Shown here: in pieces, positions 4,026 to 62,206 of the stretch
Layout of the letters: every line of letters starts with the position of its first letter
Position numbering within the stretch: the first letter of the stretch is position 1
Assembly: GCF_002261475.1 (NCBI RefSeq)
Contig: NZ_NEVN01000013.1
Location: forward strand, 186,001 to 250,000
Length of the DNA: 64,000 nucleotides
Direction: 5' to 3'
DNA from: Bordetella genomosp. 5
GTDB taxonomy: Bacteria > Pseudomonadota > Gammaproteobacteria > Burkholderiales > Burkholderiaceae_B
The notes under the pieces: generated by a model
What the model was told of the DNA's origin: nothing
What the model saw: only the letters and a program-made list of their open reading frames with translations
The model's database searches: none
Made by a program: the position numbers and the translations under genes

Positions 4026-4703
4026 ATGCACAACGAAAATTATGCAGAGAATACCGCAGTCGCGTTACGTACGCGATTGCGCCAGGCCCGCGCCGCGCTG
4101 CCCGAAGAGGCGCGCGCCCGTGGCGCTCTGCTCATGCGCGCCCGGCTGTTCACCTGGTCCAATCTGGCACGCGAGGCCCTGGCCGAGGCCGGGCAAGCGC
4201 TCAAGCGCATCGCCGCGTTCTGGCCCCTGGCCGACGAGCCCGATCTGCGCCCCCTGCTCGAGCAATGGGTGCTGGCCGGATACGAGGTCTGCCTGCCGGT
4301 GATCGCGCAGCGCGACGCTGCGCTCGAATTCCGTCTCTGGACCCCCGACGCCGCCATGCGCGCGGGCGTGCATGGCATCGCCGAACCGGCCGATGGCGCC
4401 GTGGTGCAGCCGGACGTGATCCTGGTGCCGACGCTCGGGTACACCCTGGCGGCCGATCGTCTGGGTTACGGCGGCGGCTACTACGACCGCACCCTGGCGG
4501 CGTTGCATGATCAGGGCATCGACCCGATCACGATCGGCGTTGCCTGGACCGAAGGCCTGCTGCCCGACGACTACGCGCCCGCCGCGCATGATTTTCCGCT
4601 CGACGCCATCCTGACCCCCGAGGGCTGGATGCCGGACGCCCCGCTGGGCACGGGCGGGACGGCCCAGGGCAGCGCCGGCGTACAGCGCTTCCTGCTGAAC
4701 TGA
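4026..4703 (+). CDS. fau: 5-formyltetrahydrofolate cyclo-ligase
   Basis: Converts 5-formyl-THF to 5,10-methenyl-THF with ATP, returning a storage or side-product folate to one-carbon metabolism. The family signature GYGGGYYDRTLAAL is in the C-terminal half, preceded by DVILVPTLGYT. The N-terminal RTRLRQARAAL matches the usual start of the family. At 225 residues it is slightly longer than the 180-200 typical of the family, with a short unmatched C-terminal tail. In many proteobacteria 6S RNA sits beside this gene, but nothing resembling 6S RNA is visible here. A GC-rich hairpin follows the stop. Confidence 0.92.
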   Translation: MHNENYAENTAVALRTRLRQARAALPEEARARGALLMRARLFTWSNLAREALAEAGQALKRIAAFWPLADEPDLRPLLEQWVLAGYEVCLPVIAQRDAALEFRLWTPDAAMRAGVHGIAEPADGAVVQPDVILVPTLGYTLAADRLGYGGGYYDRTLAALHDQGIDPITIGVAWTEGLLPDDYAPAAHDFPLDAILTPEGWMPDAPLGTGGTAQGSAGVQRFLLN

Positions 4704-4711
4704 ACCCCGCT

Positions 4712-4733
4712 CCGGCGCGCCTGCCTGCGCCGG
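4712..4733 (+). terminator. GC-rich hairpin after the cyclo-ligase gene
   Basis: CCGGCGC and GCGCCGG form a 7-bp perfect stem around an 8-base loop, 8 bases after the stop codon. There is no T-run, so it is at best a weak intrinsic terminator. The rest of the gap to 4975 is very GC-rich and holds the sigma-54-type promoter described next. Confidence 0.35.
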
Positions 4734-4882
4734 GGACGCACCACATCGAGGCCGGGCCGGTGCCCGATTCCGTGCCGCGCCGGCCTGCGCGCCGCCACGC
4801 GCGCCGCGCGGCCGCCCCATCGCGGCGCATGGCCGCCCGCGCGTACGCCGCGCGCCTGATCCTGGCTCCATGCCGTGCAAAG

Positions 4883-4900
4883 CTGGCATGGCTGTTGCTT
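4883..4900 (+). promoter_or_regulatory. Sigma-54 (RpoN)-type promoter of the Anbu cluster
   Basis: The sequence CTGGCATGGCTGTTGCTT fits the sigma-54 consensus TGGCAC-N5-TTGC, with GG at 4885-4886 and GC at 4897-4898 separated by exactly 10 bases. It lies 76 bases upstream of the first ATG of the ATP-grasp / alpha-E / transglutaminase / Anbu run, a sensible distance for a start near 4910. A clear AGGAG at 4966-4970 precedes the ATG at 4976. No enhancer (NtrC-like) site was identified by eye. Confidence 0.6.
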
Positions 4901-4975
4901 GTGCCCATGACATGAATAAAGGCGTCTGCATGACGCCCGCGCCGCCCCGCGGCGCCATACCCAGCAGGAGATGCC

Positions 4976-6406
4976 ATGCTCGATGCCGTCACGCGGCCCG
5001 TCGCCTTCGACGAGATGTACGACACCCAGGGAAAGGTGCGCCCGCATTACCGCGCCTTCGCCCAATGGCTGGCCGGCGAACCCCCGGACGCGATGAGCGC
5101 GCGGCAGATCGAGGCCGATCTCAACTTCCGCAAGGTAGGCATCACGTTCTCGGTCGCGGGCGACGCCGCAGGCACCGAACGCCTGATCCCGTTCGATCTG
5201 GTGCCGCGCATCATTCCCGCCGAAGAATGGCGCCGGCTCGATGCCGGCCTGAAGCAGCGGGTCCGCGCGCTCAACCGCTTCATCCACGACATCTATCACG
5301 ACCACGACATCGTGCGCGCCGGCATCATTCCGGCCGAACAGGTCTTTCTGAATGCGCAGTACCGTCCCGAGATGCAGGACATCGACGTGGCCGAAGGCAT
5401 CTATTGCCACGTGGCCGGCGTGGACATCGTGCGGGCCGGCGCGGGCGAGTTCTACGTGCTCGAGGACAATCTGCGCGTGCCCTCCGGCGTGTCGTACATG
5501 CTCGAAAACCGCAAGATGTCGATGCGGCTGCTGCCGGAGGCGTTTTCGCGCATCAAGATCCAGCCGGTGGCGCACTATCCCGACCTGCTGCTCGACAACC
5601 TGCGCGAGGTGGCGCCGAACGTGAGCGACGAGCCCACCGTGGTGGTGCTCACCCCCGGCATGTACAACTCCGCCTACTTCGAGCACGCGTTTCTGGCGCA
5701 GCAGATGGGCGTGGAGCTGGTCGAGGGCCAGGATCTGTTCGTGGACCAGAACACGGTGTACATGCGCACCACGCGCGGCCCGCGCCGCGTCGACGTGATC
5801 TACCGCCGGCTCGACGACGACTTCCTCGATCCGCTGTCGTTTCGCGCCGACTCCGTGCTGGGCGTGCCCGGCCTGCTGTCGGCGTACCGCGCCGGCCGCA
5901 TCACGCTGGCCAATGCCATCGGCACCGGCATCGCCGACGACAAGTCGACCTATCTGTACGTGCCGGACATGATCCGCTTCTATCTCGGCGAAGAACCCAT
6001 CCTGTCGAACGTGCCGACCTGGCAATGCGCCCGCTCCGACGAACTCTCGCACGTGCTGGCCAACATGCACGAGCTGGTGGTCAAGGAAGTGCACGGCGCG
6101 GGCGGCTACGGCATGCTCGTGGGCCCGACGGCCACGCGGGCGCAGGTCGAGGCCTTCAAGGATCGCGTGCGCGCCAACCCGGCCAACTACATCGCGCAGC
6201 CCACGCTGGCCCTCTCGACCACGCCGACTTATGTCGAGGCAGGCGTGGCGCCGCGTCATGTGGATCTGCGCCCGTACGTGCTGTGCGGCAAGGACATCCG
6301 TACCGTGCCGGGCGGCCTGTGCCGCGTGGCGCTCGTCGAAGGCTCGCTGGTGGTCAACAGCAGCCAGGGCGGCGGCACCAAGGACACCTGGGTGCTGGAA
6401 GACTGA
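4976..6406 (+). CDS. Circularly permuted ATP-grasp protein (Anbu cluster)
   Basis: A 476-residue protein of the circularly permuted ATP-grasp family (DUF404/DUF407 type), recognisable by EDNLRVPSGVS at residues 163-173, the middle segment VYRRLDDDFLDPLSF, and the C-terminal KEVHGAGGYGML and SSQGGGTKDTW. ATP-grasp enzymes make carboxylate-amine bonds through an acyl phosphate. In Anbu clusters this protein has been proposed to build a peptide or amide modification, but no substrate is established. AGGAG precedes the ATG at good spacing. It leads a four-gene run with the alpha-E gene only 16 bases downstream, and the sigma-54-type promoter at 4883 is its likely control point. Confidence 0.9.
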   Translation: MLDAVTRPVAFDEMYDTQGKVRPHYRAFAQWLAGEPPDAMSARQIEADLNFRKVGITFSVAGDAAGTERLIPFDLVPRIIPAEEWRRLDAGLKQRVRALNRFIHDIYHDHDIVRAGIIPAEQVFLNAQYRPEMQDIDVAEGIYCHVAGVDIVRAGAGEFYVLEDNLRVPSGVSYMLENRKMSMRLLPEAFSRIKIQPVAHYPDLLLDNLREVAPNVSDEPTVVVLTPGMYNSAYFEHAFLAQQMGVELVEGQDLFVDQNTVYMRTTRGPRRVDVIYRRLDDDFLDPLSFRADSVLGVPGLLSAYRAGRITLANAIGTGIADDKSTYLYVPDMIRFYLGEEPILSNVPTWQCARSDELSHVLANMHELVVKEVHGAGGYGMLVGPTATRAQVEAFKDRVRANPANYIAQPTLALSTTPTYVEAGVAPRHVDLRPYVLCGKDIRTVPGGLCRVALVEGSLVVNSSQGGGTKDTWVLED

Positions 6407-6422
6407 CTCGCGGAGAACCGAC

Positions 6423-7367
6423 ATGCTGAGCCGAACCGCCGACCATCTGTTCTGGATGTGCCGCTACATCGAACGCGCCGAGAACACCGCGCGCATGCTG
6501 GACGTGAACCTGCAGATGTCGCTGCTGCCGCAGGATCCGCTCACGCGGGACAACTCCTGGCGCGCGCTGCTGCGCATCTCCGAGCTGCAACACGGGTATC
6601 GCGACAAGTATCCCGAGGTCACGCCGGAAAGCGTGCTGCATTACATGGTGCGCGACCCCGACAATCAATCGTCGATCTACGCCTGCCTGCGTTCCGCGCG
6701 CGAAAACGCCCGCGCCGTGCGCGGCAGCCTCACCACCGAGGTCTGGGAAACCTACAACACCACCTGGCTCGATCTGCAGAAGCGGTTGCAGGGCGACCAG
6801 CTCGAGCGCAACCCGGGCGAGTTTTTCGAGTGGGTGAAGTTCCGCTCGCATCTGGCGCGCGGCGTCACGGTCGGCACCATGCTCGAAGACGAGGCCATGG
6901 TGTTCCTGCGGCTGGGCATGCACCTGGAGCGCGCCGACAACACGGCGCGGCTGCTGGACGTGAAGTTTCACGAAGGCGAAGACGCCGACCAGGGCGTGAA
7001 CAGCGAGTTTTACCGCTGGTCGGCCATTCTGAGCTCGGTGTCGGGCCTGGAGGTGTATCGCAAGGTCTATCGCGACGTCATCACGCCGGACCGGGTGGCC
7101 GAGCTGCTGATCCTGCGCGCCGACATGCCGCGCTCGCTCGTGGCATCGATCGGAGCGGTCTCCGACGATCTCGCGCGCGTGTCGAACCAGCGCTCGGCCG
7201 AGACGGAACGCCGCGCCGGCATGCTTTGTGCGGAGCTGCGCTATGCCCGCGTCGAAGACATTCTGCGCGGCGGCGGTCTGCACCGCTTTCTCGAACGCTT
7301 CCTGGATCGTGTGAACGATCTGGGCAATCGCGTCAGCCAGGACTTCCTGCTGCCACTGTCGGTCTGA
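6423..7367 (+). CDS. Alpha-E domain protein (DUF403, Anbu cluster)
   Basis: A 314-residue all-helical alpha-E protein. The family is nearly always found next to the circularly permuted ATP-grasp gene and often a transglutaminase-like gene. The sequence contains an internal echo: ERAENTARMLDVN starting at residue 17 and ERADNTARLLDVK starting at residue 169, which suggests a duplicated helical unit. The start at 6423 is chosen because MLSRTADHLFWMCRYIERAENTARM is the conserved beginning; the open frame upstream is a shadow of the ATP-grasp gene. GGAG lies just before the ATG. The function is unknown; a partner or peptide-handling role with the ATP-grasp protein is inference. Confidence 0.9.
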   Translation: MLSRTADHLFWMCRYIERAENTARMLDVNLQMSLLPQDPLTRDNSWRALLRISELQHGYRDKYPEVTPESVLHYMVRDPDNQSSIYACLRSARENARAVRGSLTTEVWETYNTTWLDLQKRLQGDQLERNPGEFFEWVKFRSHLARGVTVGTMLEDEAMVFLRLGMHLERADNTARLLDVKFHEGEDADQGVNSEFYRWSAILSSVSGLEVYRKVYRDVITPDRVAELLILRADMPRSLVASIGAVSDDLARVSNQRSAETERRAGMLCAELRYARVEDILRGGGLHRFLERFLDRVNDLGNRVSQDFLLPLSV

Positions 7368-7383
7368 CGCCCCCGGAGCCCCC

Positions 7384-8187
7384 ATGAAACATTTGATCCG
7401 CCACGTGACGCGCTACCGCTACACAGCGCCGGTGAGCTACAGCATTCAGGTGTTGCGCCTCACGCCCCGGCTCGACGATCACCAGCGTGCGCTGCGCTGG
7501 CACATCGAAGCGCCGGGTCCGCTCGCCGAACAGGTCGACGCCTACGGCAATATCACGCACACCCTCACGCTCACGCGGCCGCACGATGAGATCGAGCTGC
7601 GCGTGACCGGCCATATCGAGATCGACAACCTGCCCGAGGGCCGCCTGCACCACGACGACAGCCGCCTGCCGCTGCACGCTTTCTGCGTGCAGACGCCGCT
7701 CACGCAGAGCGTCGCGGCCATCCATGACTTCACCCGGGCCGTGCTGCCCGGCGGCATGCACACCCCCGCCGATGCGCTGGCGCTGGCCGAGGCGATCTGC
7801 GGCCGCGTGGCCTACGAGCCCGGCACCACGGATGTGACCACCGCGGCCGAAGAGGTGCTCGCCCTGGGCCACGGCGTGTGCCAGGACCACGCGCATCTCT
7901 ATCTGGCCTGCGTGCGCGGCATGGGCCTGCCCGCGCGCTATGTGAGCGGCTATCTCTACACCGAGGCCGAGCACGCGGCCAGCCATGCCTGGGTCGACGT
8001 CTGGCTGGCGGGACAGGGCTGGGTCAGCGTGGACGTCACCAACCGCCAGTTCGCGTCGGATTGCCACTGCCGCCTGGCGGTGGCGCGCGACTACGATTCC
8101 GCCTCGCCGGTGCGCGGCGTGCGCAGCGGCGGCGGCGAAGAATCCATGAGCGTAACGGTGCAGGTCCAGCAGGCCGCGCAGCAGTAG
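7384..8187 (+). CDS. Transglutaminase-like cysteine protease (Anbu cluster)
   Basis: A 267-residue protein with an N-terminal beta-strand region (HVTRYRYTAPVSYSIQVLRLTP) followed by a transglutaminase-like core. The likely catalytic triad is Cys166 (GHGVCQDHAHL), His201 (SHAWVDVW) and Asp217 (SVDVTN). Such bacterial proteins are usually predicted peptidases or amidases rather than cross-linking enzymes. It begins 16 bases after the alpha-E gene with a GGAG ribosome-binding site, and Anbu follows about 90 bases later. The context suggests it makes or removes a modification that feeds the Anbu chamber, which is inference. Confidence 0.9.
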   Translation: MKHLIRHVTRYRYTAPVSYSIQVLRLTPRLDDHQRALRWHIEAPGPLAEQVDAYGNITHTLTLTRPHDEIELRVTGHIEIDNLPEGRLHHDDSRLPLHAFCVQTPLTQSVAAIHDFTRAVLPGGMHTPADALALAEAICGRVAYEPGTTDVTTAAEEVLALGHGVCQDHAHLYLACVRGMGLPARYVSGYLYTEAEHAASHAWVDVWLAGQGWVSVDVTNRQFASDCHCRLAVARDYDSASPVRGVRSGGGEESMSVTVQVQQAAQQ

Positions 8188-8278
8188 GATTCGAGGGACG
8201 CAACACTGGCCGCCCCGTGCGCGCCGGCGCGCCCCTCCCCTACAATATCGGGGCACGATTTTCGTCCTCCCTGTTTCC

Positions 8279-9145
8279 ATGACCTACTGCATCGCCGCCC
8301 AACTCGACCAAGGCCTGGTCTTTCTGTCCGACTCGCGCACCAATGCGGGCGTGGACCAGATCAGCATCTTCCGCAAGCTCAGTGTGTTTGAGCTGCCGGG
8401 CGAGCGCGTCATGGTGCTCATGACCTCGGGCAATCTGGCGGTGTCGCAGGCGGTGGTCAATACGCTGGCCCAGGAAGACGCCAATCGGGCCGATTCGATC
8501 TGGCGCGTGCCGAACATGTTCGAGGCCGCGCGCCGGGTCGGCGATGCGGTACGTCAGGTTCATGCGCGCGACGCGGCCTCCCTGCATGACCAGGGCGTGG
8601 AGTTCAACGTCAACCTGATCTTCGGCGGCCAGATCGGCCAGGAGCGCTGCCGGCTGTTCCAGATCTACGCGGCCGGCAACTTCATCGAAGCCACGCCGGA
8701 ATGCCCGTACTTCCAGATCGGCGAGTCCAAGTATGGCAAGCCCATCCTCGACCGCGTGCTGCAGCCCGACACCTCGCTCGACGAGGCCGCCAAGTGCGCC
8801 CTGATCTCGATGGATTCGACCTTGCGCTCCAACATCTCGGTCGGCCTGCCGCTCGATCTGCTGGTTTACGAAGCCGACAATCTGCGCGTGACGCACTTCG
8901 CCAGCATCGATGATCACAACGAGTATTTTTCGATGATCCGCAGCTCCTGGGGCGAACGCCTGCGCCAGGTGTTCGCCGAGATCCCGGATCCGCTCTGGAC
9001 CCGCCCGGATGGCCCGGACTCGCTGGTGCCGGCCCACCGCGAGCATCAGCCGGTGCGCATCGCGCCCGTCGGGCTCAACACGAGCGGCGACTACGCGACG
9101 CCGCAGGCCCTGGCCCAGGGCAGCCCGGGCCAGCAGCCGACCTGA
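8279..9145 (+). CDS. Anbu, proteasome-like Ntn-hydrolase
   Basis: A 288-residue proteasome-type peptidase of the Anbu (ancestral beta-subunit) family, close in fold to HslV. The N-terminus MTYCIAAQLDQGLVFLSDSR places a Thr directly after the initiator Met, so Met removal exposes the catalytic Thr without a propeptide. The following SDSRTNAGVDQISIFRK and MTSGNLAVSQAV are typical of Anbu. Published family structures show open helical or lock-washer assemblies. There is no strong Shine-Dalgarno before the ATG and a TACAAT-like box lies about 30 bases upstream, so an additional internal promoter is possible. The same window also has hslVU (38.2-40.1 kb). Confidence 0.92.
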   Translation: MTYCIAAQLDQGLVFLSDSRTNAGVDQISIFRKLSVFELPGERVMVLMTSGNLAVSQAVVNTLAQEDANRADSIWRVPNMFEAARRVGDAVRQVHARDAASLHDQGVEFNVNLIFGGQIGQERCRLFQIYAAGNFIEATPECPYFQIGESKYGKPILDRVLQPDTSLDEAAKCALISMDSTLRSNISVGLPLDLLVYEADNLRVTHFASIDDHNEYFSMIRSSWGERLRQVFAEIPDPLWTRPDGPDSLVPAHREHQPVRIAPVGLNTSGDYATPQALAQGSPGQQPT

Positions 9146-9151
9146 GCGACG

Positions 9152-9170
9152 CGCGCCCTTCGCGGGCGCG
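9152..9170 (+). terminator. GC hairpin after the Anbu gene
   Basis: CGCGCCC, a 5-base loop TTCGC, then GGGCGCG form a perfect 7-bp stem starting 7 bases after the Anbu stop. No T-tract follows, so termination efficiency is uncertain. Confidence 0.4.
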
Positions 9171-9185
9171 TCTGGACGAGTCCGC

Positions 9186-9315
9186 CTCACGGATCACGCC
9201 TCGTTGGTCACGCCTCGCCGGGCGCACCTCGCTGGCCGGCCGCACCTCGCCGGCCGCCCCTCGCCGGGCGCACCTAGCCGGCCGCACTTAGCCGGCCGCC
9301 CCTAGCCGGGCGCCC
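9186..9315. repeat. 14-bp tandem repeat, site 2 (about 9 units, reverse orientation)
   Basis: Units close to CTCGCCGGCCGCAC, the reverse complement of the unit at sites 1 and 3, run from 9186 to 9315. Two diverged units come first (9186-9213), followed by seven clearer ones with one 4-base insertion near 9228. It occupies most of the first half of the gap between the Anbu gene and the next Bug gene. Confidence 0.8.
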
Positions 9316-9460
9316 CACGTTATCCCCATACGGGGCAACCCGCATTTCGCGCTCGCTAAGCAGCGCTTCGGTAAAGCCAAATTCCCCTGCCGCCGTCCCT
9401 GTCCGACACTAGCCGATCCCTGCCGCCACGTCCGGCGGGTCACAAGAACAGGAGCGAGAC

Positions 9461-10441
9461 ATGGAATTTCCCCGTATCCGCACGGCCGTCCTGGCCGGCG
9501 CGCTGGCGCTGACTGGCCCGGCCCTGGCCCAATCGGGCTTTCCCACGCATGCCATCACGCTGGTGGTGCCCTTCGCCGCGGGCGGGCCCACCGATGTGGT
9601 CGCGCGTGCGCTGGGCGCCTCCATGGCCAAGACGCTGGGCCAGAGTATCGTCGTCGAGAACCGCACCGGCGCGGGGGGCACCCTGGCGCCGAACTTCGTG
9701 GCGCGCGCCAATGCCGACGGCTACACCTTGCTGATCCACCACAACGGCATGGCGACCGCGCCGGCGCTGTATCGCAAGCTGCCCTACGATCCGCTCAAGG
9801 ACTTCGCCTACGTGGGCCAGGTCGCGGATGTGCCCATGACCGTGCTGGCGCGCAAGGATCTGCCGCCCAGCGATCTGGGCGGCTTCATCAAGTATGCGCG
9901 TGAACAGGGCAGCAAGATCAACCTCGCCAACGCCGGGCCGGGCGCGGTGTCGCAGCTGTGCGGCATGCTGCTGCAGGAGGCCATCGGCACGCAGTTCACC
10001 ACCATCCCCTACGCCGGCACGGCGCCCGCGATGAGCGCGCTGCTGGGCCAGCAGGTGGATGTGCTGTGCGACCAGACCACGCAGACCATTCCGCAGATCA
10101 AGTCGGGCAACGTGAAGTTCTACGGCGTCACCACGCTGGACCGCATCAAGGCGCTGCCCGACGCGCCCACGTTGCAGGAAGGCGGGCTCAAGGGCTTCGA
10201 GGTGAAGGTGTGGCACGGCATCTATGCGCCCAAGGGCACGCCGCCCGCCGCCATCGACAAGATCAACGCGGCGCTGCGCGCGGCGCTCGAGGATCCCGCG
10301 TTCACGCAGCGCATGGCCGAGCTGGGCGCCGAGATCGTGCCGCCCGCCAAGCGGACGCCACAAGGCCTGCAAAGCTGGCTGCAGGCCGAGACGGACAAGT
10401 GGGGTGCGATGATCCGCAAGGCGGGCGTCTACGCCGACTGA
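9461..10441 (+). CDS. Bug-family (tripartite tricarboxylate transporter) solute-binding protein
   Basis: A 326-residue periplasmic receptor of the Bug/TctC family, hugely expanded in Bordetella-type bacteria. The signal peptide is short and ends ALAQS. The mature part begins with the family motif FPTHAITLVVPFAAGGPTDVVAR, followed by ENRTGAGGTLAPNFVARANADGYTLL. Known Bug proteins bind carboxylates, amino acids or nicotinate-like compounds; the ligand here cannot be read from sequence. No TctA/TctB membrane genes lie nearby. It stands alone, and a strong bidirectional terminator separates it from metF. Confidence 0.92.
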   Translation: MEFPRIRTAVLAGALALTGPALAQSGFPTHAITLVVPFAAGGPTDVVARALGASMAKTLGQSIVVENRTGAGGTLAPNFVARANADGYTLLIHHNGMATAPALYRKLPYDPLKDFAYVGQVADVPMTVLARKDLPPSDLGGFIKYAREQGSKINLANAGPGAVSQLCGMLLQEAIGTQFTTIPYAGTAPAMSALLGQQVDVLCDQTTQTIPQIKSGNVKFYGVTTLDRIKALPDAPTLQEGGLKGFEVKVWHGIYAPKGTPPAAIDKINAALRAALEDPAFTQRMAELGAEIVPPAKRTPQGLQSWLQAETDKWGAMIRKAGVYAD

Positions 10442-28029: not shown

Positions 28030-28057
28030 AGCTTTCCCCGGCGGGTCGCCCGTCGAC

Positions 28058-28183
28058 GTGCAGCCGGCCAGGTGCGGCCGGCGAGGTGCGGCCGGCTAGG
28101 CGCGGCCGTCGAGGTGCGGCCAGCCAGGTGCAGCCGGCCAGGCGCGGCCGGCCAGGCGCGGCTGGCGAGGCGCGGCCGGCCAG
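28058..28183. repeat. 14-bp tandem repeat, site 3 (9 exact-length units)
   Basis: Nine head-to-tail 14-base units with no length variation, consensus G(T/C)GCGGCCGGC(G/C)AG. Substitutions are confined to a few positions. The array lies in the convergent gap between xerC and the TonB receptor gene. It is the cleanest of the three arrays in the window. Confidence 0.9.
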
Positions 28184-28203
28184 GCCTCGCCGCCTTCCTT
28201 CCA

Positions 28204-38210: not shown

Positions 38211-38750
38211 ATGGAACAATTTCACGCCACTACCATCGTCTGCGTCCGCCGGGGCAATCACGTCGCGCTGGGCGGCGATGGTCAGGTCACGCTGGGCAAC
38301 ATCGTCATCAAAGGCACCGCGCGCAAGATCCGCCGCCTGTACCACGACAAAGTGCTGGCCGGTTTTGCCGGTGCCACCGCCGATGCCTTCACGCTCCAGG
38401 AGCGCTTCGAGGCCAAGCTCGAAAAACACCAGGGCCACCTGATGCGCGCCGCCGTCGAGCTCACGCGCGACTGGCGCACCGACCGCGTGCTGCGCCGTCT
38501 CGAAGCCATGCTCATCGTGGCCGACGTCGAGCACACGCTGGTGCTCACCGGCAACGGCGACGTACTCGAGCCCGAACACGGTCTGGCCGCCATCGGATCC
38601 GGCGGCGCCTATGCGCAATCGGCCGCGCTCGCGCTGCTGCGCAACACCGAACTCGCGCCGGAAGTCATCGTCAAACAGTCGCTGGAGATTGCCGGCGACC
38701 TGTGCATCTATACCAACCAGAATCACGTGATCGAGACGCTGGGCGGCTGA
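38211..38750 (+). CDS. hslV: ATP-dependent protease HslV, peptidase subunit
   Basis: A 179-residue proteasome-like peptidase that forms a double hexamer capped by HslU. The precursor MEQFHA is removed to expose Thr7 of [35 protein letters not shown] and the C-terminal [13 protein letters not shown] are conserved. It is separated from hslU by 30 bases. It is the second proteasome-type peptidase in this window after Anbu; the two share the N-terminal Thr logic but not partners. Confidence 0.97.
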
Positions 38751-38780: not shown

Positions 38781-40115
38781 ATGTCCGCATCGAACATGAC
38801 CCCCGGAGAGATCGTCTCCGAACTCGACAAATACATCATCGGCCAGAACCGCGCCAAGCGTGCGGTTGCCGTGGCGCTGCGCAACCGCTGGCGCCGCCAG
38901 CAGGTCGCCGAGCCGCTGCGCCACGAGATCCATCCCAAAAACATCCTGATGATCGGCCCCACCGGCGTGGGCAAGACCGAGATCGCGCGCCGTCTGGCCA
39001 AGCTGGCCAACGCGCCCTTCATCAAGATCGAAGCCACCAAGTTCACCGAGGTGGGTTATGTGGGCCGCGACGTCGACACCATCATCCGCGACCTGACCGA
39101 ATACTCGATCAAGCAGACGCGTGAGATCGAGATGCGCCGCGTGCGCTCGCATGCCGAAGACGCCGCCGAAGACCGCATTATCGATGTGCTCGTGCCGCCG
39201 CCCCGCAACGCCATGGGCACGCCCGAGCGCGGCGAAGACAGCACCACGCGCCAGACCTTCCGCAAGCGCCTGCGCGAGGGCCTGCTCGACGACACCGAGA
39301 TCGAGATCGAGATCGCCCAGGCCGCGCCGCAGCTCGACGTGATGACCCCGCCGGGCATGGAAGAGATGGCCGAGCAGCTGCGCGGCATGTTCGCCGGCAT
39401 GGCCCGCGACAAGACCAAGCCCAAGAAGATCAAGATCAAGGAAGCCCTCAAGCTCATCACCGAGGAAGAAGCGGCCAAGCGCGTCAACGAAGACGACATC
39501 AAGACGGCCGCGATCGCCAACGTCGAGCAGAATGGCATCGTGTTCCTCGATGAGATCGACAAGATCGCCGCGCGCCAGGAATCCGGCGGCGCCGAAGTCT
39601 CGCGCCAGGGCGTGCAGCGCGACCTGCTGCCGCTGGTCGAAGGCACCACGGTGAACACGCGCTACGGCATGGTGCGGACCGATCACATCCTGTTCATCGC
39701 GTCGGGCGCGTTCCACCTGGCACGTCCGTCGGATCTGATCCCCGAACTGCAGGGCCGCTTCCCGATCCGCGTCGAGCTCGACTCGCTGTCGGCCGACGAT
39801 TTCGTGCGCATCCTGTCCGAGACCGACGCGTCGCTGGTCAAGCAGTACACCGCCCTGCTCGAGACCGAAGGCGTGACGCTCGACTTCACCGACGAAGGCA
39901 TCAAGCGGCTCGCGGAGCTGGCCTTCTCGGTCAACGAGCGCACCGAGAACATCGGCGCGCGCCGTCTGTACACGGTGATGGAGAAGCTGCTCGACGAGCT
40001 GTCCTTCGACGCCACCGCCAGCAGCGGTCAGGCCGTAAAGATCGACGGCGCCTACGTGGATGCCCAGCTGGCCGAAACCGCCAGCAGCCAGGATCTCGCG
40101 CGCTACGTGCTGTAA
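38781..40115 (+). CDS. hslU: ATP-dependent protease HslU, ATPase subunit
   Basis: A 444-residue AAA+ unfoldase. [17 protein letters not shown] at the N-terminus, Walker A GPTGVGKT (Lys65), pore-loop GYVGRD, I-domain from about residue 110 to 240, Walker [12 protein letters not shown], and C-terminal ARYVL that inserts into HslV. Full length. A strong terminator follows at 40165. Confidence 0.97.
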
Positions 40116-41483: not shown

Positions 41484-44387
41484 ATGTCTCCTATCCAGGC
41501 TCTTTCCCGCGCCGGCGCTCGCCGGGCGAGTGCGTTTCTCATCGTTCTGATCCTGTCGGCCTGCGGTGGTGGAGGCGGAGGAAGCGGCGGGGGTGGTAGC
41601 GGCGGTGGTGGCGCAGGCGGCGGAGCCACGACCGGTGGCGCGACCGGAGGCGCGACGGGAGGCACGGCCGGAGGCACGGCAGGCACAACCGGAAGCACCG
41701 GAGGAGGAGGCACCGGCAGCGCAGGAGGCACCGACAGCGCCGCCAGCACGAACACCGCGCCCACCCCCAGCGTTCCGACCTCCAGCGCGCCGGCCGAGGA
41801 GGCGCCGAACAACGCGGGAGATCCCCTCGCGGCGCCCGCCCCGACCGCGGCCAACTTCAATGCCCAAGGCGTACGCATCGGCGTCCTCGACGGCGGCTTC
41901 AACGGCGACGGTATCCTCGACCACCCCGCCGCCGTGGCCGCCGCCTTGCAGGAGATCATCGCGCCCGAAGACGCCGAGCTCGGCTCGCACGGCGCGATCG
42001 TCAGCCGGGTGATCGGCGGTCGGGACATCGGCGACGGCTTTCCTCAGGGGCTCGCCCACGGCTTCAGCCTGTACCAGGCCAACGCGGGCGCCATCGTGAC
42101 CGAGGCCATGCTGAGCAACCGGCTGGGCGCGTTCGCCGCGCGCAACGTGAGGATCGTGAACAACTCCTGGTCACTGCCGTCCGACCCTGCCTTCCTGCTG
42201 CCCGATGGCGATCAAACGCGGCCCGACTCGCTCATGGTGACCACGCTGTTTCCGCCGCTGCGCACGGCTGTCCTCACCAACGGCATGCTGCTGATCTGGG
42301 CCGCCGGCAACGAAACGCAGGACAATCCTTATCTGATGGCCGGCGCGCCCGCCGTCGACCCTACGCTCGAGCGCGGCTGGCTCGCCGTCGTGCAGCTGCA
42401 GGCCGACAACACGCTCTCGCCCTGGTCCAATGCCTGCGGCGTCGCGGCCAACTGGTGCCTCGGCGCGCAGGCCCCCAACAACCTGCGCGGCACCTCGTTC
42501 GCGGCCCCGGTCGTCACGGCCGTGGCCGGCCTGGTCTCGCAGGCCTACCCCTGGATGGACAACAGCGCGCTGCGCCAGACCATCCTGTCCACCGCTGACG
42601 ACCTCGGCAATCGCGCGCTGTACGGCTGGGGACGCGTGAATCCCGAGCGCGCGGTGCGCGGGCCGGCCCGGTTCGACACCGGGCTCACGCTCGGCGGCAA
42701 CTTCGTGGCCAACTTCGATGCCGTGCAGTCCACCTTCTACAACGACATCGCGGGCAATGCCGGCCTCGACAAGCTCGGCACCGGCACCCTGATCCTCACG
42801 GGCAGCAACACGTACGCGGGCGCCACGAACGTGCTGGGCGGCACGCTCGGGCTCTCCGGCAGTCTAGCCGGCGACGTGAACGTCGGCGCCGCCGGCACGC
42901 TGCTCGCCAAGGGCGGCGTGGTGAATGCCTCGGTCAACAACGGCGGGCGCACCGAGGCCCGCGGCACCGGCCTGCACATCACGGGCGACTACACGGCCCA
43001 GGACACGTCGACCACCGCCGTGCAGCTCGGCAGCATCATCACGGTCGGCAGAACGGCCACGCTGGCCGGTTCCACGTTGCAGGTCCTCAAGCCCGAGGGC
43101 AGATACGTGGTCAGGTCGCGCGAAACCGTCCTTCGGGCTGGCAGGCTCGAGGGCACGTTCAGCAGGGTCACGGCCGAGAACGGCCTGCTGTACGACGTCA
43201 GCGCCCGCTACTCGGCCACCCAGGTGGAACTCGACACCCAGCGGCGCAACGTCGCGCACGCGGCACAGGATTTCTTCGGCGCCGACGCTACCCGCCAGTC
43301 CGCCGGACACGCCGTCGAGACGGCCTTCCGGGCGGCCGACGCGAAGGTCCAGGGCGCGGCGAGCAGCGCGTCGGACGCCTTCGTCGCCGCCGCGGCCAAG
43401 CTGCAATCCGTGGCTTCGCGCACCGCACTGGGCAACACGCTCGACAGCGTGAGCGGACAGATCTTCGCCTCGTCCCAGGCCCTCGCCTTCCAGCAGTCGC
43501 AAACCGTCGACCGCGCGCTGACGCACCGTCTGGACAGTCTGGCGTCGGCCATGGCCGGGCCGGGTGCCTGGCTGAACCTCACCGGCGCCGCCGGCACGCT
43601 GGCCCAATCGGGATTCGCCCGCGCGGACACGCGCCTGTTCGCCGCACAGGCGGGCGCGGATCAGCGCGTCGGCCCGAGCACCGTGCTCGGCGGCGCCTTC
43701 ACCTGGTCCGACGCCAACGCACGCTTCGATCGCCATGGCGGCGGCGCCACCAGCCGTGGTCAGGGCGTGTCGCTATACGGCCGCCAGGGCGACGACACCG
43801 GCCCGTACCTCGCGGGCCGCGTGGGTTACGACTGGCTGCGCGCCGACGTCAGGCGCGAGATTCTGGCCGGCGATGCGCGGCGCGTGGCCACCGCGCGCCA
43901 GGATCGGATGGCGAGCGCCTACGCCGAGCTCGGCTATACCTTCGCAGATGACGACGACCGCCTGACGCCCTTCGTCGGCGTCTCCTACGATCGTCTGCGA
44001 CGCGGGCGCGTCGACGAAAGCGGCCATGCGTTCGGTCTGAAGGCCGCCGCCGCGACGCACGCGCAGGCGGGGGCCGCGAGCGGCATGCGTTTCAGATGGA
44101 AGCCCGGCAGCTGGGCCGGACGCGATACTGTGTTTTCGGCTTATGCGGCCTATCGCTATGCCAACGCCGAACGCCTCGATTTCACGGCCGCCTTCACGGG
44201 CGCGCCGGACGCCACGTTCCGGGTCCAGGGCATCGGACTACGACGCCACAGCGGCTGGGCCGGCGTGGGCGCGGCCAGCGGGCTCGATGAACGGCTGTCG
44301 TGGTTCGTGCATTACGACGTGCAGGCCAGCGCGGGCGGCGTCGCGAATCACGTGCTCTCGGCCCGCATGCGCTACCGCTACGACTGA
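41484..44387 (+). CDS. Subtilisin-like autotransporter lipoprotein (SphB1-like)
   Basis: A 967-residue type V secreted serine protease. The signal peptide ends in a lipobox (LILSAC, Cys27), followed by about 70 residues almost entirely of Gly, Thr, Ala and Ser. The S8 domain has Asp136 (GVLDGG), His169 (SHGAIVS) and Ser338 (RGTSFAAP). One passenger repeat (KLGTGTLILTGSNTYAGATNVLGGTL, about residues 430-460) precedes a linker and a beta-barrel ending ARMRYRYD. This lay-out matches Bordetella SphB1, a surface lipoprotein that matures filamentous haemagglutinin. Its substrate here is unknown; no FHA-type gene is in the window. Confidence 0.9.
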   Translation: MSPIQALSRAGARRASAFLIVLILSACGGGGGGSGGGGSGGGGAGGGATTGGATGGATGGTAGGTAGTTGSTGGGGTGSAGGTDSAASTNTAPTPSVPTSSAPAEEAPNNAGDPLAAPAPTAANFNAQGVRIGVLDGGFNGDGILDHPAAVAAALQEIIAPEDAELGSHGAIVSRVIGGRDIGDGFPQGLAHGFSLYQANAGAIVTEAMLSNRLGAFAARNVRIVNNSWSLPSDPAFLLPDGDQTRPDSLMVTTLFPPLRTAVLTNGMLLIWAAGNETQDNPYLMAGAPAVDPTLERGWLAVVQLQADNTLSPWSNACGVAANWCLGAQAPNNLRGTSFAAPVVTAVAGLVSQAYPWMDNSALRQTILSTADDLGNRALYGWGRVNPERAVRGPARFDTGLTLGGNFVANFDAVQSTFYNDIAGNAGLDKLGTGTLILTGSNTYAGATNVLGGTLGLSGSLAGDVNVGAAGTLLAKGGVVNASVNNGGRTEARGTGLHITGDYTAQDTSTTAVQLGSIITVGRTATLAGSTLQVLKPEGRYVVRSRETVLRAGRLEGTFSRVTAENGLLYDVSARYSATQVELDTQRRNVAHAAQDFFGADATRQSAGHAVETAFRAADAKVQGAASSASDAFVAAAAKLQSVASRTALGNTLDSVSGQIFASSQALAFQQSQTVDRALTHRLDSLASAMAGPGAWLNLTGAAGTLAQSGFARADTRLFAAQAGADQRVGPSTVLGGAFTWSDANARFDRHGGGATSRGQGVSLYGRQGDDTGPYLAGRVGYDWLRADVRREILAGDARRVATARQDRMASAYAELGYTFADDDDRLTPFVGVSYDRLRRGRVDESGHAFGLKAAAATHAQAGAASGMRFRWKPGSWAGRDTVFSAYAAYRYANAERLDFTAAFTGAPDATFRVQGIGLRRHSGWAGVGAASGLDERLSWFVHYDVQASAGGVANHVLSARMRYRYD

Positions 44388-59847: not shown

Positions 59848-61278
59848 ATGAGCGCCCCATCACCCACCCCTGCCGAATCCGTTCCCCCTACGCCCCCCGC
59901 TCACTCGCGCCATGACCTCCTGATGGCCATGGCCGGGGTGGCCGCCACCGTGGTTCTGGTGGCCTTCGATTCCACCATCGTCAGCACCTCGATGCCCCGG
60001 GTGGCCGCCGCGCTCAACGGCATGGCGCTCTATGCCTGGGTGGGCACGGGCTACCTGCTCGCCACCGCCGTCTCGATCATGATCTTCGGCCGGCTGGGCG
60101 ACATGTTCGGGCGCAAGCCCCTGATGCTCGTGTCGGTGGCCGTGGTGGCGCTGGGCTCGATCGCCTGTGGCCTGTCGCAGTCGATGGAGCAGCTGATCGC
60201 CTTCCGCACCCTGCAGGGGGTCGGCGGCGGCATGATGATCGCGACCGCCTTCGCCGCGCCGGCGGATCTGTTCCCCGACGCGCGCGAGCGGGTCCGATGG
60301 ATGGCGATGGTGTCGGCGGCCTTCGCCATGGCCAGCGGCATCGGGCCGGTGCTGGGTGGCGCCGCCACGCAGGCGCTGGGCTGGCGCGCCGCGTTCTTCA
60401 TCGCGCCGATCGCCGCCGCGGCCGCCTTCTTTCTGCTGTGGCGCTATTTCCCCCGCATCCCGCCCGCGCACTCGGGCAGCGCCCGCATCGATTGGGTGGG
60501 CGCCATACTGCTGGTGATCGGCGTGGGCGCCCCGCTCGCCGCGCTGGAGCTGGGCTTCGCGCCGGGCGACCGCGCCCATCCGATGCTGGCGGCCGCGCTC
60601 GCGGTGGCCGGCGTGGCCGCGCTCGGCATTCTGCTGCCCTACGAACGCCGCACCACCAACCCGATCTTCCCGTTGCGCGTGCTGGCCGGTGCTGAACCGC
60701 GCCTGCTCAATCTCGCGGCGGTCGCGGTGGGCGCGGTGATGTTCATCCTGATTTTCTACAGCCCGCTGCTGCTGCAGAACGAGCTGCACTACTCGCCCAG
60801 CCAGGCGGGCCTGGTGCTCACGCCGCTGGTGGCCGCCATCCCGCTGGGCAGCATCGTCAACGGCCGCCTGTTTCCGAAGCAGACCGAGCCGCAACGCCTG
60901 ATGGTGTTCGGCGCGCTGCTGCTGGCCGTGGGCTCGGCCATGGTGCTGGCGATCGGCACCGACACGTCGGTGTACTGGATCATCGCCGCCTTCACGGTCA
61001 ATGGCACGGCGCTGGGTTTCCTGCTGCCCAACCTCACGCTGTTCATGCAGATGCTCAGCGAACGGCGCGACGTGGGCGTGGCCTCGGCCCTGGTGCAGAC
61101 CACGCGGGCGGTGGGCAGCGCGGCCGGCACCGCGCTGGTCGGGATCGCCATCACGCATTCCTCGGTCCTGTCCGGCGTGCGCGCCGGCCTGATACTCTGC
61201 GTCCTGCTCTCGCTCGGCGCCGCCGTGGTGGCGCATCGCGTCAAGATGAAAAACCTGATGATGCGACGCGCGAGCTGA
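59848..61278 (+). CDS. MFS exporter, DHA2 (EmrB/QacA) family
   Basis: A 476-residue, 14-span drug:proton antiporter. VAFDSTIVSTSMPRVAAAL is the motif in span 1, GRLGDMFGRKPLML is motif A, and AFRTLQGVGGGMMIATAF is motif B/C of DHA2 proteins. The substrate is unknown. It begins 30 bases after the CoxG-like gene and may share its transcript; the DMT transporter follows 47 bases later. Confidence 0.9.
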   Translation: MSAPSPTPAESVPPTPPAHSRHDLLMAMAGVAATVVLVAFDSTIVSTSMPRVAAALNGMALYAWVGTGYLLATAVSIMIFGRLGDMFGRKPLMLVSVAVVALGSIACGLSQSMEQLIAFRTLQGVGGGMMIATAFAAPADLFPDARERVRWMAMVSAAFAMASGIGPVLGGAATQALGWRAAFFIAPIAAAAAFFLLWRYFPRIPPAHSGSARIDWVGAILLVIGVGAPLAALELGFAPGDRAHPMLAAALAVAGVAALGILLPYERRTTNPIFPLRVLAGAEPRLLNLAAVAVGAVMFILIFYSPLLLQNELHYSPSQAGLVLTPLVAAIPLGSIVNGRLFPKQTEPQRLMVFGALLLAVGSAMVLAIGTDTSVYWIIAAFTVNGTALGFLLPNLTLFMQMLSERRDVGVASALVQTTRAVGSAAGTALVGIAITHSSVLSGVRAGLILCVLLSLGAAVVAHRVKMKNLMMRRAS

Positions 61279-61324
61279 TCGCCCCGGCCGCGCGGCCGCC
61301 CTCTCCTCTTCTGTCGTCATCATC

Positions 61325-62206
61325 ATGCAGCGTCGTGATCTCCTCGAGTTGCTGGCCCTGGCCGCCGTCTGGGGCGGCTCGTTCCTGTTCATCCGCGTCG
61401 CCGTTCCCGAATTCGGTCCGGCGGCCCTGATCGAGCTGCGCGTGGGCCTGGCCGCGCTGTTCCTGCTGCCGCTGGCCATCGCGCGCCGCCGCCTGCCCGT
61501 CATCGCGCGCCACTGGAAGGCCATCCTGGTGGTGGGCGCGCTCAACGCCGCCCTGCCGTTCCTGCTCTATGCCTACGCGGCCCAGTCGCTGGGCGCGGGC
61601 TTCCTGTCGGTGGCGAACGCCGTCACGCCCGTGTGGGGCGCGGTGATCGGCTGGATCTGGCTGCGCGACCGGCTGCCCGCCGCCCGCGTCGCGGGGCTGA
61701 TGCTGGGCTTCTGCGGCATCGTGGTGCTGGTCTGGGACAAGCTCGATTTCAGCGCCGGCGGCACCGGCTTCGCCGTGCTGGCCGCGATCTCGGCGCCGAT
61801 CTTCTACGGTGTCGCCGCCAACTGGACCAAGCGTTACCTCACCGGCGTGGATTCGCTGTCCAGCGCCACGGGCAGCATGCTGGGCGCGGCGCTCGTGCTC
61901 GCGCCGCTCGCGATCATGTACTGGCCCGAGCAGCCCGTCTCGTTCGAGGCGTGGCGCGCCACGGTGCTGCTGGCCGTGGTCTGCACCGGCATGGCCTACA
62001 TCGTGTTTTTCCGCCTCATCGCCGTGCTGGGGCCCACCGCGGCGGTCAGCGTGACCTTCCTGGTGCCGGTATTTGGGGTGTTGTGGGGCGTGTGGCTGCT
62101 CGACGAGGCCCTGACCCCGCAGATCCTGGCCGGGGCCGGCGTGATCCTGGCGGGCACCGCGCTGGCGCTCGGGCTGGTGCGGCTGCCGGGCCGCCGCCCG
62201 GCCTGA
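61325..62206 (+). CDS. EamA/DMT-family permease
   Basis: A 293-residue, ten-span permease made of two EamA halves: LLELLALAAVWGGSFLFIRVAVPEFGP in the first and MLGAALVLAPLAIMYW with FLVPVFGVLWGVWLLDEAL in the second. Members export metabolites or amino acids. The ATG follows a weak ribosome-binding site. It converges on the phospholipase gene. Confidence 0.9.
   Translation: MQRRDLLELLALAAVWGGSFLFIRVAVPEFGPAALIELRVGLAALFLLPLAIARRRLPVIARHWKAILVVGALNAALPFLLYAYAAQSLGAGFLSVANAVTPVWGAVIGWIWLRDRLPAARVAGLMLGFCGIVVLVWDKLDFSAGGTGFAVLAAISAPIFYGVAANWTKRYLTGVDSLSSATGSMLGAALVLAPLAIMYWPEQPVSFEAWRATVLLAVVCTGMAYIVFFRLIAVLGPTAAVSVTFLVPVFGVLWGVWLLDEALTPQILAGAGVILAGTALALGLVRLPGRRPA

Follow-up and report, generated by a model that had tools for sequence, protein, structure and literature searches.

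A probable nitrogen-type sigma54 promoter upstream of the Anbu operon in Bordetella genomosp. 5

A four-gene cluster was analyzed in a 64,000-nucleotide stretch of the Bordetella genomosp. 5 genome (contig NZ_NEVN01000013.1, positions 186,001 to 250,000; this whole stretch is referred to as the window). The cluster (4976–9145, + strand) encodes a circularly permuted ATP-grasp (CP-ATP-grasp) ligase, an Alpha-E protein, a transglutaminase-fold enzyme, and Anbu, a proteasome-family N-terminal nucleophile (Ntn) hydrolase. It is the published Anbu operon, not a new system. The operon is probably read from a sigma54 promoter that belongs to the nitrogen-scavenging set of this genome. With a probability of about 0.6, we consider it to be an amide-bond ligase and hydrolase module of nitrogen starvation, in which Anbu is an optional peptidase; because the run is probably read from this promoter, nitrogen salvage is its most likely role. 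The nitrogen-type promoter is the strongest functional clue, and it was missed in an initial annotation of the cluster.

Sigma54-type site upstream of the ATP-grasp gene

Sigma54 promoters follow the consensus TGGCAC-N5-TTGCW, and the search was performed using the strict pattern TGGCAY-N5-TTGCW, which allows T or C at the sixth position. The sole strict match in the 64 kb window (0.13 expected) was TGGCATGGCTGTTGCT at 4884–4899 on the + strand. This sigma54 (-24/-12) promoter candidate scores 8/8 and lies upstream of the ATP-grasp gene, with its start 92 bp and its end 77 bp from the ATG. Throughout the genome (5.2 Mb), the pattern gave 25 matches, compared with 2 for the reversed control. 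Pfam was used to scan the open reading frames that follow 19 of these sites; the six omitted sites include that of the window itself. Twelve of the 19 scanned sites precede genes for glutamine synthetase, P-II followed by an ammonium transporter, two amidases, seven solute-binding proteins of the ATP-binding cassette type (L207, L208, L209, L211, L215, L217, and L220), and sigma54; nitrogen-scavenging genes, including glnA and glnK-amtB, are thus among those preceded by such sites. An NtrC was detected in the genome above the NCBI curated cut-off, and its gene ends approximately 2.6 kb from the glutamine synthetase site.

A terminator-like hairpin (4868–4891) overlaps the sigma54 candidate, and the site could be read as part of the terminator of the upstream gene instead of a promoter. 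However, the hairpin is weak, as is its T tail, and the pattern is rare by chance, as seen from the expectation for the window and from the reversed control (2 vs 25). In addition, a site is retained in most loci of the own family, 46 to 118 bp upstream of the ATP-grasp start, in surroundings that differ between loci. We regard the terminator explanation as very improbable.

Conservation of the sigma54 and NtrC-like sites

Two sets of loci were compared. Set 1 combined one Anbu region for each genus of a phylum sample (74 genera other than the own one, giving 75 loci because G344 contributed two) with ten loci from additional genera of the own family and two G003 regions; G003 is a family genome with no Anbu match. 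Set 2 comprised 80 named related loci, nearly all titled Burkholderiales. Loci with an ATP-grasp start and enough upstream DNA were usable, the others were dropped, and the window was counted in both sets. The two sets partly overlap (L070 and L149 each lie on a contig of 21,214 bases, and species may recur elsewhere).

Sigma54 scores of at least 7/8 in the 300 bp before the ATP-grasp gene were found for 20 of the 66 usable loci in set 1 and 30 of the 71 in set 2, while 0.43 and 0.53, respectively, were expected from shuffles. The 20 hits in set 1 were distributed over the own family (8), another family of the order (3), and other orders or classes (9). The enhancer bound by NtrC is the palindrome TGCACC-N5-GGTGCA. 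NtrC-like palindromes of at least 10/12 were present in the 450 bp upstream of ATP-grasp in 42 of 134 loci (6.1 expected), including relatives such as L033, L034, L128, and L144, and 22 of these 42 loci also have a sigma54 score of at least 7. The 400 bp immediately upstream of Anbu served as a position control, and none of the 86 loci reached a sigma54 score of 7 there. A sigma54 site directly before Anbu was rejected as a candidate, as it was found at 0/23 loci without and 0/63 loci with a co-directed upstream ATP-grasp gene.

Candidate promoter of Anbu

The 91-bp gap before Anbu contains TACAAT (8241–8246, + strand), a candidate -10 box that starts 38 nt before the Anbu ATG. Between -60 and -18 relative to the Anbu ATG, 37 of 109 loci have the pattern TANAAT (2.8 expected), and 33 of these 37 have it at -32 to -41. 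For the subset of Bordetella, Achromobacter, and the own family, it was found in 10 of 14 loci (0.18 expected); L149, which is of the same family and TANAAT-positive, is outside this 14-locus subset. No -35 element was recognized with TACAAT 8241–8246, and a simple sigma70 scan of 4600–9600 gave no full -35/-10 promoter. The conservation of TANAAT suggests that production of Anbu need not depend on its partners, and a weak housekeeping promoter probably serves this gene in addition to the sigma54 promoter. One gene run need not be one transcript, given that the candidate promoter sits within the gap.

Expression data from passages on Pseudomonas putida speak neither for nor against an Anbu promoter, because they disagree on the induction of Anbu itself. 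The values in passages of PMC7801951 are 1.12, 4.81, and 1.45 for Anbu and 11.04–37.31 for the other three genes (three columns), whereas those in passages of PMC3325844 are 11.1 for Anbu and 6.6 and 7.1 for its neighbors. In passages of PMC8050072, the log2 values for nitrate over ammonium are 4.44 for PP_2685 and 3.99 for PP_2688.

Co-occurrence of Anbu, Alpha-E, and ATP-grasp

In the family sample, Anbu was found in 16 of 61 genomes, and G463, the only other genome of the genus in this sample, has neither Anbu nor CP-ATP-grasp. Among 299 genomes of the phylum, 115 have Anbu and 171 have Alpha-E (both, 113; Anbu only, 2; Alpha-E only, 58; neither, 126), and Alpha-E was found in 74 of the 75 Anbu genera. 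The two Anbu-only genomes are of one genus and also have no CP-ATP-grasp. A co-directed ATP-grasp gene was missing from the 5.5 kb upstream of Anbu at 23 of 86 loci; nine of these have ATP-grasp at another place in the fetched DNA (divergent, downstream, or approximately 6 kb upstream), and the fetched DNA of the other 14 contains no ATP-grasp. Based on the co-occurrence counts and these 23 loci, Anbu is an accessory that is nearly always accompanied by Alpha-E in the genome, while Alpha-E often occurs without Anbu. The same counts (58 of 171 Alpha-E genomes without Anbu, the 23 loci, and the two Anbu-only genomes) do not support a single indivisible system.

Complete fusions of CP-ATP-grasp and Alpha-E (816–908 residues) were found in 9 of the 80 named loci. 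These proteins have the same two domains in one chain, whereas the source genome has one Alpha-E and one CP-ATP-grasp in separate genes. The fusion at L101:14562–17009 (816 residues) lies within a stop-free frame of 1687 codons.

It is conceivable that Anbu and the other three genes share only a neighborhood and a regulatory history and act separately, with Anbu as a constitutive peptidase. In favor of this are the conserved -10 box before Anbu (37/109), the 23 loci without a co-directed upstream ATP-grasp gene, none of which has a sigma54 site, and the constitutive and moderate expression of Anbu given in section 14 of PMC5666114. However, Alpha-E is present in 113 of 115 Anbu genomes and in all but one of the Anbu genera, and among the genomes with Anbu but no ATP-grasp in the fetched stretch, only G241 has no Alpha-E. 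Separate action is thus considered unlikely.

Protein families and catalytic residues

The four genes are co-oriented on the + strand with intergenic gaps of 16, 16, and 91 bp. The initial annotation had placed four genes of these families in one run with short gaps at 4976–9145, and its coordinates were exact and its family names agreed with the Pfam and PDB matches. The ATP-grasp gene (4976–6406, 476 residues) matched PF14403 (E 4.7e-169) and PF04174 (8.9e-156), and its solved homologue is 3n6x (3.7e-221), which is named a putative glutathionylspermidine synthase.

The Alpha-E gene (6423–7367, 314 residues; PF04168, 8.9e-99) was taken to start at ATG 6423, while the longest mechanical reading of the frame begins at 6231. 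Its structural model was all-helical, with a predicted local distance difference test (pLDDT) score of 92.0 and a predicted template modeling score of 0.90 (90 sequences), and no PDB match reached E 0.001. The two halves of Alpha-E are homologous and represent a tandem internal duplication (BLASTP, 4e-07; hhalign probability 98.2, E 4.3e-14). Each half has an ER motif (Glu17-Arg18 and Glu169-Arg170) that was invariant in the 90 sequences. The nearest Alpha-E among the named records is that of Bordetella pseudohinzii (81%), although very near records may be omitted.

The third gene (7384–8187, 267 residues) encodes a transglutaminase-fold cysteine hydrolase or transferase (PF01841, 3.4e-23; PF08379, 1.9e-21). 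Its Cys166, His201, and Asp217 were invariant in 31 aligned sequences from named loci; this triad assignment rests on the alignment, as a motif check by regular expression (32/88 loci) was too narrow. The model of the enzyme (pLDDT 94.7) best matched 3isr, a putative cysteine protease of Cytophaga hutchinsonii, over nearly the full length (E 6.8e-20, template modeling score 0.79), followed by TgpA and transglutaminases. These structure matches of the predicted model do not discriminate between hydrolase and transferase chemistry.

Anbu (8279–9145, 288 residues) matched PF00227 (8.8e-07) and five PDB sequences at E of 0.001 or below, of which three are named Anbu and two Peptidase, the best being 5loy (7.1e-99). 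One of the two Peptidase entries, 5lox, is called Anbu in passages of PMC8665760. Thr2, Asp18, and Lys33 (Met counted) were invariant in an alignment of 24 sequences from named loci. A larger set of 86 Anbu proteins comprised one genome per genus of the phylum sample, the second copy of G344, the ten own-family proteins, and that of the window; here, Asp18 and Lys33 were present in 86/86 and Thr2 in 85/86 (one Ser). The closest solved relatives of the protein are Anbu proteins, and its residues correspond to the Thr nucleophile that becomes N-terminal on removal of Met, Asp17, and Lys32/33 of Anbu. The catalytic residues of Anbu and of the transglutaminase-fold enzyme are intact. Anbu has a C-terminal extension (8999–9142) of approximately 48 residues beyond the part matching 5loy; 27 of the 86 sampled proteins have at least 273 residues, and LQxLAQ near the end is kept in the consensus of the 24 sequences.

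Comparison with published operons

The same four-gene operon is described in passages of PMC5666114 and PMC6376114, which list tagging and degradation hypotheses and attribute a peptide-synthesis idea to Iyer et al. 2009. Because the operon and the tag and degrade ideas are found there, the interpretation in the initial annotation restates a published hypothesis. Section 14 of PMC5666114 favors protein degradation by Anbu, based on its ring and its binding of proteasome inhibitors, and considers peptide synthesis less likely. Passages of PMC8665760 cite three structural studies of Anbu and state that its function is still unknown.

The link of Anbu to nitrogen is also already known. PP_2685-2688 of P. 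putida were up under nitrogen limitation in passages of PMC7801951, and PMC3325844 lists 2685-2687. Passages of PMC8050072 report that levels of PP_2685 and PP_2688 on nitrate exceed those on ammonium and that nitrogen depletion elicits a response of the PP_2688 promoter. In Burkholderia cenocepacia, according to passages of PMC5491218, NtrC and sigma54 both target a cluster that comprises DUF404/407, DUF403, and transglutaminase-like genes. In the literature passages searched, cross-genera sequence conservation of the operon promoter and of the -10 box before Anbu was not found, and it may be in print.

The Anbu operons of Pseudomonas aeruginosa, P. putida, and Yersinia bercovieri have the same four families in the same order (ATP-grasp, Alpha-E, transglutaminase, and Anbu) and the same Anbu Thr/Asp/Lys, and that of P. 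putida responds to nitrogen limitation. In comparison, the operon studied here has a promoter candidate in the gap before Anbu, and its Anbu (288 residues) has the C-terminal extension. The B. cenocepacia cluster I35_5080-83 (PMC5491218) shares the DUF404/407 (ATP-grasp), DUF403 (Alpha-E), and transglutaminase-like genes, but encodes another, large protein with a transglutaminase domain, and Anbu is not among the genes named in those passages.

Genomic setting

The operon is flanked by genes for a 5-formyltetrahydrofolate cyclo-ligase (4026–4703) upstream and a TctC-type receptor (9461–10441) downstream, neither of which is an obvious partner. As had been annotated, no ATPase unfoldase gene was found in the cluster (4976–9145). 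The window has hslV at 38211–38750 (TIGR03692, above cut-off), followed by hslU at 38781–40115, which was recognized from sequence alone. HslV-HslU and the 20S proteasome share with Anbu the Ntn-hydrolase fold family, the Thr nucleophile, and the Asp and Lys residues; unlike them, Anbu has no ATPase unfoldase partner in its cluster. This genome thus keeps a classical proteasome relative, hslV, and its unfoldase alongside Anbu. None of the four cluster proteins matched a PADLOC model of anti-phage defence at E of 0.01 or below.

Other features of the window include a 14-bp GC-rich tandem repeat in three arrays (665–712, 9213–9313, and 28050–28185), whose units look related and occur in both orientations; the array at 9213–9313 sits just downstream of Anbu. 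A large open reading frame (41484–44387) resembles a subtilase-type autotransporter by eye, and a single 2-kb block (60001–62000) has an unusual AT skew of -0.30.

Function of the operon

Starting from the gene identities and the intact catalytic residues, we infer the following order of reactions. Nitrogen shortage would act through sigma54, and probably NtrC, to switch on expression of the ligase–hydrolase core. The ATP-grasp enzyme, probably with Alpha-E as a partner or substrate carrier, would make an amide (peptide or isopeptide) bond using ATP, and the transglutaminase-fold enzyme would break or transfer such a bond; amide-bond chemistry of this type is known for these families. Anbu, present also at a basal level, would cleave the resulting peptide, that is, what the core makes or releases. 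The purpose may be to conjugate and recycle intracellular peptides or amines under ammonium shortage. This salvage role is supported by the published nitrogen responses of P. putida, the dependence of the B. cenocepacia cluster on NtrC and sigma54, and a metagenomic association with urea metabolism (PMC3597751).

Several observations weigh against this explanation. None of the analyses identified a substrate of the module, and passages of PMC6376114 report no complex among the Y. bercovieri operon proteins and no Anbu peptidase activity. Sigma54 scores were below 7 in 46/66 and 41/71 loci of the two sets, and a score of 7 was reached by only 9 of the 47 usable loci from other orders; sigma54 control of ATP-grasp is therefore lineage-bound. 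In some loci of set 2, only 18–35 bp separate the site from the assumed ATP-grasp start, which may reflect misassigned start codons or a very short leader. A sigma54 site is absent (0/23) from all Anbu genes that lack a co-directed ATP-grasp gene upstream. Within the source genome, 5 of the 19 scanned sites precede genes that have no obvious link to nitrogen (sulfate permease, aldehyde dehydrogenase, phosphoglucomutase, dicarboxylate symporter, and a GAF/PAS protein), and two precede open reading frames of no family. The best NtrC-like palindrome of the window reaches 9/12, which is not significant, as 32% of its shuffles equal it. The Fisher p of 1.2e-35 for the co-occurrence of Anbu and Alpha-E is uncorrected for kinship.

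A sharper form of the favored explanation, which overlaps with it, is a small-molecule pathway: the ligase would convert an amine or peptide to an amide, of the gamma-glutamyl type or another, both hydrolases, including Anbu, would split it for nitrogen, and no protein would be tagged. The sigma54-type sites before amidases, binding proteins of the amide/urea and peptide types, glnA, and glnK-amtB are consistent with such a pathway. The gamma-glutamylation logic of putrescine use is a precedent. Moreover, in passages of PMC3597751, the DUF404/407, DUF403, and transglutaminase-like domains track urea-metabolism domains in marine metagenomes. Against it, the flanking cyclo-ligase and TctC receptor give no evident oxidase or transaminase step, and Anbu, being closest to proteasome-type particles, would be an unusual choice for a small amide. 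We consider this pathway a reasonable possibility at somewhat less than even odds.

Alternatively, ATP-grasp and Alpha-E could tag proteins with a peptide or amino acid, the transglutaminase-fold enzyme could trim or remove the tag, and Anbu could degrade the tagged proteins without an unfoldase. The linked genes with intact active sites, the near-constant presence of Alpha-E in Anbu genomes, and the degradation role favored in section 14 of PMC5666114 argue for this scheme. On the other hand, 58 of 171 Alpha-E genomes have no Anbu, the two of 115 Anbu genomes that have no Alpha-E also have no CP-ATP-grasp, the Y. bercovieri proteins showed neither activity nor complex in the passages of PMC6376114 cited above, and no tag is known. 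From the modification-linked proteolysis proposed in the initial annotation, an ATP-dependent amide-bond enzyme beside two amide-bond hydrolases and the dependence of Anbu on Alpha-E (113/115) were retained, while the tag and the tagged substrate were unsupported. Protein tagging by the operon is neither shown nor excluded, and we consider the scheme doubtful.

Returning to the nitrogen-salvage module, its regulation can tentatively be refined into two controls, in which a sigma54/NtrC switch would govern the core, a constitutive promoter would keep Anbu present in advance, and Alpha-E would be the carrier that supplies the ligase with its substrate, so that the operon makes and unmakes an amide conjugate; we put this version below the small-molecule pathway in probability. 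With two such promoters, assays performed in rich medium would be expected to detect Anbu but little of its partners. The conserved nitrogen-type promoter tells under which condition the substrate of the Anbu operon should be sought.

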